A stretch of DNA of 38,547 nt from positions 1 through 38,547 of the forward strand of contig CAIUWO010000144.1 of NCBI GenBank assembly GCA_903902895.1, read 5' to 3'. Made by a program: the position numbers and the translations under genes. Under the pieces are notes generated by a model, which ran no database searches, was not told the origin of the DNA, and saw only the letters and a program-made list of their open reading frames with translations. Below, one piece after another: positions 2,488-37,914 of this stretch. The first letter of the stretch is position 1. Every line of letters begins with the position of its first letter. This DNA is from Candidatus Hydrogenedentota bacterium (GTDB lineage: Bacteria > Hydrogenedentota > Hydrogenedentia > Hydrogenedentales > CAITNO01).

Positions 2488-2612
2488 CGAGCCCCTAAAT
2501 CCCCCTTCGAAGGGGGATTTAGGGGCTCGTCCGCCTTCGGCGGGGATCTTGCTCTTGCGCCGGCTTCCACATCCCCCCGCCGCTTCGCGGCCGTCCCCCT
2601 TCAAAGGGGGAC
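2488..2612. repeat. Composite palindromic intergenic repeat element
   Basis: 42-bp perfect palindrome at 2488-2529, then CCGCCTTCGGCGG, CCGCTTCGCGG and GTCCCCCTTCAAAGGGGGAC hairpins. Confidence 0.85.
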
Positions 2613-2860
2613 TAATAACCGTCCGGTATTTATAATCATGCATAAAAACTTGCCCCGTGGTCGCGGTGCTTTCACGCGGCAAGTCCCGAAACTCTTGTGA
2701 CCTGCGTCGAGGTGCAACCGCATTCCAATGCGATTGCCTTGGCGCCCGGGGGCAGGCAATTTTTTGTTCTTTATGCTATATTTTACAGGAAGGTCCGTCC
2801 GGCGGATGCGGGGGGATCGTGTTTCAGCGACTATTTGTGTCCAATAACACGGAGGTGCCT

Positions 2861-37056: not shown

Positions 37057-37914
37057 TCAGTGTTGCTCGGCCAGTTCGGCGAGGATGGCGTCCACGTGAT
37101 TTTGCAGGTGGTCCAAGTTGCCGCCGTTGTCGATGACCCATGTTGCCACAGCGCGTTTGGATTCCGGGTCGGACTGGGCGGCGATGCGGCGCTCCGCTTC
37201 AGCGGGGTCCATGCCGCGCTCTTCCACCAAACGGCGCATCCGCTCCGCAACGGGGCAACTGACGAGGATCAGCCCGTCGAACAGGAGCGGGACAGCAGGT
37301 GTGGCGGGGTTATGGTGCGGTTGAGCATTGGCGCGATGGTCCACATCCCCCGGCCCTTCGGGCCACCCCCTTCGAAGGGGGACCTGGGCAGGCGTGTGGT
37401 CTGGTCTTGGCGGGATGTGTTCTTCCCCGACGACTTCTCTCCCTGCCCCCTTCAAAGGGGGACCGGGGCAGGCGCGCGGTCCAGTTGTGGCGAGATGTAT
37501 GCCCCCCCGGCAACTGCTGTCCCCCCTGTCTTCTGCCATGGGGTTAACCATGCCCTTCTCCCCCAGCAAGGCCGCCTCGACCAAGACGGTTTGCGCGCCC
37601 TGCTCTCCAAGTTCCGCGCAGCGCCGCGCGATTTCGGCGTAGATGGCGGGATGGGTGATGGCGTTGAGCTGGCGGCGGGCGTTGGGATCGGCAAAGGCGC
37701 GGGCGGCGATGCGGGCGCGGTCGATGCTTCCATCTTCGGCGAGTATGCCGTCGCCAAAGGCGCGCAGCAGGGCCTCGTGGGCGGCGCCCCCGGGCTCGAT
37801 GACGGCGTGGCCAACGCGGTCGGCGTCGATGACGGGGATGCCGCGCCGTTCGAAGGCGCGGGCGGCTTCCGACTTGCCGGCGCCGATGCCGCCGGTGATG
37901 CCGAAGATCCTCAT
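37057..37914 (-). CDS. coaE: Dephospho-CoA kinase with repeat-derived in-frame insertion
   Basis: MRIFGITGGIGAGKSEAARAFERRGIPVIDADRVGHAVIEPG, NAITHPAIYAEI, VLVEAALLGEKG, then non-CoaE sequence (residues about 122-209), then LFDGLILVSCPVAERMRRLVEERGMDPAEAERRIAAQ, VIDNGG. Confidence 0.92.
   Translation of the reverse strand: MRIFGITGGIGAGKSEAARAFERRGIPVIDADRVGHAVIEPGGAAHEALLRAFGDGILAEDGSIDRARIAARAFADPNARRQLNAITHPAIYAEIARRCAELGEQGAQTVLVEAALLGEKGMVNPMAEDRGDSSCRGGIHLATTGPRACPGPPLKGAGREVVGEEHIPPRPDHTPAQVPLRRGWPEGPGDVDHRANAQPHHNPATPAVPLLFDGLILVSCPVAERMRRLVEERGMDPAEAERRIAAQSDPESKRAVATWVIDNGGNLDHLQNHVDAILAELAEQH
37341..37525. repeat. Palindromic repeat element inside coaE (GGCCCTTCGGGCC hairpin plus two 80-bp tandem units)
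   Basis: CCCCCTTCGAAGGGGGACCTGGGCAGGCG... and CCCCCTTCAAAGGGGGACCGGGGCAGGCG... 80 bp apart; 37341-37383 resembles 2567-2612. Confidence 0.88.

Follow-up and report, generated by a model that had tools for sequence, protein, structure and literature searches.

An in-frame MITE insertion in the dephospho-CoA kinase gene of a Hydrogenedentes bacterium

Peptides that mobile elements contribute in frame to conserved proteins have been documented mainly in Rickettsia and Wolbachia, as well as for certain MITEs of enterobacteria and Neisseria. Bacterial MITEs are mostly intergenic with some in-frame fusions (PMC2229807, PMC5896051), and according to a 2024 review it is not unusual for intragenic MITEs to be fused in frame (PMC10969869). 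Nearly half of the 44 Rickettsia palindromic elements (RPEs) of R. conorii are inserted in ORFs (PMC10969869). Guanylate kinase is likewise a P-loop nucleotide kinase, and its RPE-bearing form in Rickettsia is translated and retains activity, although its substrate affinity is altered (PMC2229807). A limited literature search found nothing that ties such an element to dephospho-CoA kinase.

We have analysed a 38,547-nucleotide stretch of DNA (hereafter, the window) from an uncultured bacterium, in which coaE, the usually essential gene for dephospho-CoA kinase, is interrupted in frame by a MITE. An earlier note on this DNA had proposed that a mobile palindromic repeat was domesticated or tolerated there as an internal peptide. 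From sequence comparisons, we consider it quite probable that the MITE was acquired by transposition at a target-like site and is tolerated as a translated loop within the sole coaE found.

The insertion in coaE

The coaE gene (37057–37914, minus strand) spans 285 codons. Its ORF encodes 285 amino acids without an internal stop, so the uninterrupted frame described earlier is real. The PF01121 match is split into two stretches, which in the genome search cover positions 2–120 and 123–178 of the CoaE profile; the P-loop, the invariant residues and the kinase fold of CoaE are all in place. CoaE matches were obtained in 56 of 60 related genomes. When the CoaE of 27 relatives, including the two congeners G001 and G002, were aligned with that of the window, none had the insert, and all pass uninterrupted from the GENG..NPM region into the F.GLILVSCP region. 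This alignment, which the earlier note had set as a test, ruled out a conserved CoaE domain and mapped the junctions, with native ...GEKGMVNPM on one side and FDGLILVSCP on the other. The insertion that is missing from the relatives' coaE is of 255 bp and consists of the MITE and one copy of the target site (37283–37537 in the target-site register, the exact gap position being ambiguous by a few bases). The in-frame insert thus stood, at 85 rather than about 88 codons, MVNPM being native. When it is excised in silico, a clean empty site results and the gene has a normal length of 603 bp.

The MITE body (37283–37529, plus strand in the consensus orientation, antisense to coaE) comprises the 5′ part of the element and a duplicated 3′ half. 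The left terminal inverted repeat, AGGAGCGGGACAGCAG (37283–37298, plus strand; consensus ACAGGGAGGACAGAAG), lacks its first bases and has a 3-bp insertion, and the right one (37514–37529, minus strand) reads CTGCTGTCCCCCCTGT as plus strand. About 16 additional bases (37298–37313) lie outside the consensus and occur in no other fetched copy. The first unit (37310–37443, plus strand; model positions 12–145) contains the hairpin GGCCCTTCGGGCC and the palindrome CCCCCTTCGAAGGGGG, and the second unit (37444–37528, plus strand; model positions 66–150) is the duplicated 3′ half. The two direct repeats of about 80 bp reported earlier were recovered as 78-bp repeats that are 78% identical and spaced 80 bp apart; they correspond to the 3′ half of the element and its duplicate. 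We also observed an imperfect inverted repeat near the insert ends (37289–37309/37503–37523), absent from that note. Overall, 13% of the aligned sites differ from the element consensus. Similar duplications of the 3′ half are found in L086, L088, L089 and L123. In L088, the clearest other copy, the duplication has a unit of 81 bp, versus 80 bp plus about 16 extra bases at coaE, so that the present length requires either a longer copy formed beforehand or compensating indels.

The native site, CGTCGAAC (37275–37282; CCTCGAAC in one congener), resembles CTTCRAAG, the target that the element prefers. On the other side of the body lies CTTCTGCC (37530–37537), presumably a decayed 8-bp target duplication; it is identical to the left copy at 4/8 positions, and a duplication at coaE itself is only plausible.

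AlphaFold, run with 27 sequences, gave a pLDDT of 90–98 for the CoaE blocks and below 50 for insert residues 130–202; the predicted kinase core is intact and the predicted insert disordered. The best PDB matches of this model in Foldseek were dephospho-CoA kinases. In the model, the insert follows a short helix and precedes the strand at 212–219, which, by the parallel topology of P-loop kinases, would place it at the sheet edge opposite the P-loop.

The element and its distribution

With the insert as query, the genome search yielded 47 matches, and E-values for the best of the other copies were 1e-43 to 1e-41; the repeat is therefore far beyond chance. The non-palindromic 3′ half gave 38 matches. 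From the genome search and the fetched contigs, about 40 MITE copies with ends in common were found. The intergenic match noted earlier at 2567–2612 of the window was also recovered (2549–2613, plus strand; model positions 25–86, E 7e-8), as the short palindromic core only. Short dispersed palindromes are also present at 2480–2613 of the window.

Alignment of the copies with their flanks gave a consensus of ~151 bp, ACAGGGAGGACAGAAG...CTTCTGTCCCYCGCGT, with terminal inverted repeats of 16–20 bp (ACAGGGAGGACAGAAG / CTTCTGTCCCYCGCGT) in the complete copies. The element is small (151 bp), is present in ~40 copies and has no transposase gene, as is typical of a MITE. It is flanked by an 8-bp target duplication, which is most often CTTCAAAG (for example in L093, L094 and L104) and elsewhere CTTTGAAG (L099), CCTGTAGG (L087) or TTTCAAAG (L098), the preference being for the palindromic CTTCRAAG. 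Across the 17 complete copies, the two 8-mers that flank an element agree at a mean of 6.5/8 positions, compared with 4.9 when 8-mers of different copies are paired. This agreement was reached in 0/20,000 permutations (P<5e-5), and 8/17 copies have a duplication matching at least 7/8. The fixed length of the duplication is a property of these 17 copies, the coaE copy showing just 4/8. Thus, the repeat is mobile as had been proposed, and its terminal inverted repeats and target duplication make it a MITE and more than a palindrome.

A pattern search of the draft genome for an autonomous partner with the same ends found none; the matches were close to the control and included no convincing long pair. 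One candidate end pair, in C472, turned out to be two separate MITEs. A second type of MITE of ~370 bp (C435:10801–11171; L237, G000) has the same terminal repeats around a different middle, together with an 8-bp duplication, CTTCGAAG, and further palindromic repeats within. Since its ends are identical and its middle is not, several MITEs probably share one transposase. The 5′ end of a C435-type MITE was also seen in L236 at 1278. Many MITE copies are nested in a second dispersed palindrome, CCCCCTTCAAAGGGGG. Short CCCCCTTCAAAGGGGG palindromes with a GC hairpin were seen on many contigs, are common across the family and the order, and are frequent targets of the MITE.

With the 3′ half as query, the 38 matches in this genome compare with 3 in the congener G002, and no convincing match was obtained in the remaining genomes of the order (68 searched), where one marginal match of 23 bases was seen in G012. 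Longer-model matches were also found in the congener G001. By these searches, the MITE seems restricted to the genus. An evenly stepped sample of 80 further contigs (0.49 Mb) contained no full copy, which fits a total of ~40. The GC content of these 80 contigs (L126–L205) was 0.54, versus 0.635 in the element-bearing contigs; this lower value, along with the lack of a full MITE, suggests that part of the bin may be another organism.

The ORFs across the other copies were examined by Pfam scans and by a coding score based on hexamers; as the latter picked the correct frame in 73% of calibration cases, it was used solely alongside Pfam and reading. Out of 42 merged loci, just one, that of coaE, has the element within a gene, and no other locus is flanked on both sides by coding-like sequence of the same strand and frame. 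The other element-containing genes that the earlier note had envisaged were thus not found among these loci, and gene insertions are usually not retained. Pfam matches in ORFs that span a copy (SBP_bac_5, Metallophos) are positioned downstream of the element, so that in these cases the element seems to precede the gene. Three candidates in the same frame, L090, L121 and L247, were rejected as in-gene copies, the element lying after the stop codon of the gene or the stop lying beside the palindrome. In L087 (9924–10075; G000:C631), the MITE, whose 8-bp duplication is perfect, lies at the apparent stop codon between two adjacent genes of the same strand. In the congener locus L247 (3798–3982; G002:C383), it lies at the 3′ end of a ThiG-like gene, upstream of a ThiH-like one (names from the translations alone), and appears to provide the end of the ThiG-like frame.

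Open frame, selection and alternative explanations

The preferred explanation would run as follows. A non-autonomous, genus-restricted MITE transposed into the single coaE, at a target-like site that encodes the start of a beta-strand (Phe-Asp). A standard insertion, computed as 151 + 8 = 159 bp or 53 codons, is in frame and stop-free in this orientation, and so would have been translatable at once; the coaE copy is longer (255 bp, also a multiple of three) because of the duplicated 3′ half and the ~16 extra bases. The ribosome would read through, and CoaE would gain a disordered loop of 85 residues after the strand-3 helix and before strand 4. As the loop is expected at the edge of the sheet that is remote from the P-loop, the enzyme may still work. 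Selection would then preserve the frame and the CoaE halves and leave the loop sequence to drift.

By itself, the open frame is not remarkable, as full-size copies of this GC-rich element have on average 3.9/6 frames free of stops. For the same reason, no evidence of selection comes from the point stressed in the earlier note, that the two 80-bp units are both free of stops even though 80 cannot be divided by three. The open frame becomes informative when taken with age. In a neutral simulation with the indel rate assumed at 1/10 of substitutions, the insert frame stayed open in ~2% of runs at 5% drift and in 0/4000 at 13% drift, both figures taking the drift as having occurred in place, whereas some may have preceded the insertion. 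Divergence from the consensus may partly reflect subfamily structure that predates the insertion, which weakens the drift argument. With its 13% divergence and decayed ends, the insertion does not look young.

The strongest competing explanation, which we regard as unlikely, is a recent disabling insertion: CoaE would be dead, a second coaE missing from the assembly, or uptake, would make up for its function, and the open frame would be a coincidence. An open frame by chance is likely from the 3.9/6 figure, and the genome is a draft of 94.7% completeness. However, the CoaE profile search of this draft found no second coaE, and the copy in the window is not decaying: there are no stops or frameshifts, and all 32 residues that are invariant in 26 other CoaE are kept. 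Pairwise dN/dS values of coaE against the congeners are ~0.14–0.19 (NG86). At positions where the congeners agree, the window lineage has 15 amino-acid changes, and the congeners have 11 and 17 by the same kind of count; the branch of the window CoaE has no excess of amino-acid change. The age of the insert also does not favour a recent event.

The loop might also affect CoaE, through its partners or the control of CoA synthesis for instance, or else be removed during translation. This appears to us very unlikely; if true, a core enzyme of metabolism would have been modified by a MITE in a species-specific manner. Domestication is highly improbable as well; in that case the loop would have acquired a function (in regulation, in the binding of a partner or as an oligomer contact) and selection would maintain it. 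The retained frame and the unusual Pro/Gly/Arg/His-rich peptide are compatible with it. However, the 31 mismatches of the insert to the consensus are spread evenly over the codon positions (11/10/10, P=0.95), so the inserted peptide looks unconstrained; differences between the coaE of the window and of G002 are dominated by third positions (33/19/78). The segment is also predicted to be disordered and has no counterpart in relatives. In the choice between domesticated and tolerated that had been left open, the best reading of these data is a tolerated loop, and we infer that the frame and the CoaE halves are under selection while the loop sequence drifts.

An assembly artefact, with a short-read assembler placing a repeat between the two halves of coaE, is barely credible. 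Repeats do provoke misjoins, and the source is a draft metagenome assembly of 1056 contigs with 6.7% contamination; but a misjoin at a repeat links different loci, whereas here both sides belong to the same gene, in the right order and with seamless codons. The gene upstream of coaE is kept as its neighbour in the congeners, and the 16 extra bases make the inserted copy distinctive. Finally, absence of a transcribed insert from the protein, by ribosome bypass of a hairpin or by splicing, appears extremely unlikely. In its favour, the terminal repeats pair in the predicted mRNA fold and join the insert ends; against it, this fold is no more stable than that of shuffled sequence (z −1.1), and bypass is unnecessary for an in-frame, stop-free insert.

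Comparison with known systems

The element shares terminal inverted repeats, a target duplication and a mostly intergenic location with the 127-bp enterobacterial ERIC, the 107-bp Correia element of Neisseria and QMITE1/2. It is set apart from them, by description, through its 8-bp duplication, its palindromic target CTTCRAAG and its frequent location within another palindrome. The last feature recalls the use of REP sequences as insertion-sequence targets (PMC1525189), the incoming element here being a MITE within the dispersed palindrome CCCCCTTCAAAGGGGG.

With the RPEs, the coaE case shares a short mobile repeat (about 105–150 bp), dispersed in the genome and placed in frame in a conserved gene. 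It differs in host and in element ends, the RPE families being those of Rickettsiales and the present host belonging to Hydrogenedentes. RPEs are found in many genes, whereas recurrent in-frame insertion in conserved genes is not seen here, with 1/42 loci. By this comparison, the case is RPE-like in its working, but would be an isolated event involving another MITE that is specific to its genus.

What is new is an example in another phylum, from an uncultured lake bacterium of Hydrogenedentes, of a phenomenon known mainly from Rickettsia. With 27 relatives that have the empty site, it suggests that the process is not peculiar to host-restricted Alphaproteobacteria. Two notions that are often conflated can also be kept apart here, as the frame is apparently selected and the inserted peptide is not. 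If a MITE is GC-rich, has mostly stop-free frames and adds, together with its duplication, a number of bases divisible by three, it should be easy to tolerate, and this property of length and frame offers a testable rule for which MITEs can enter proteins.
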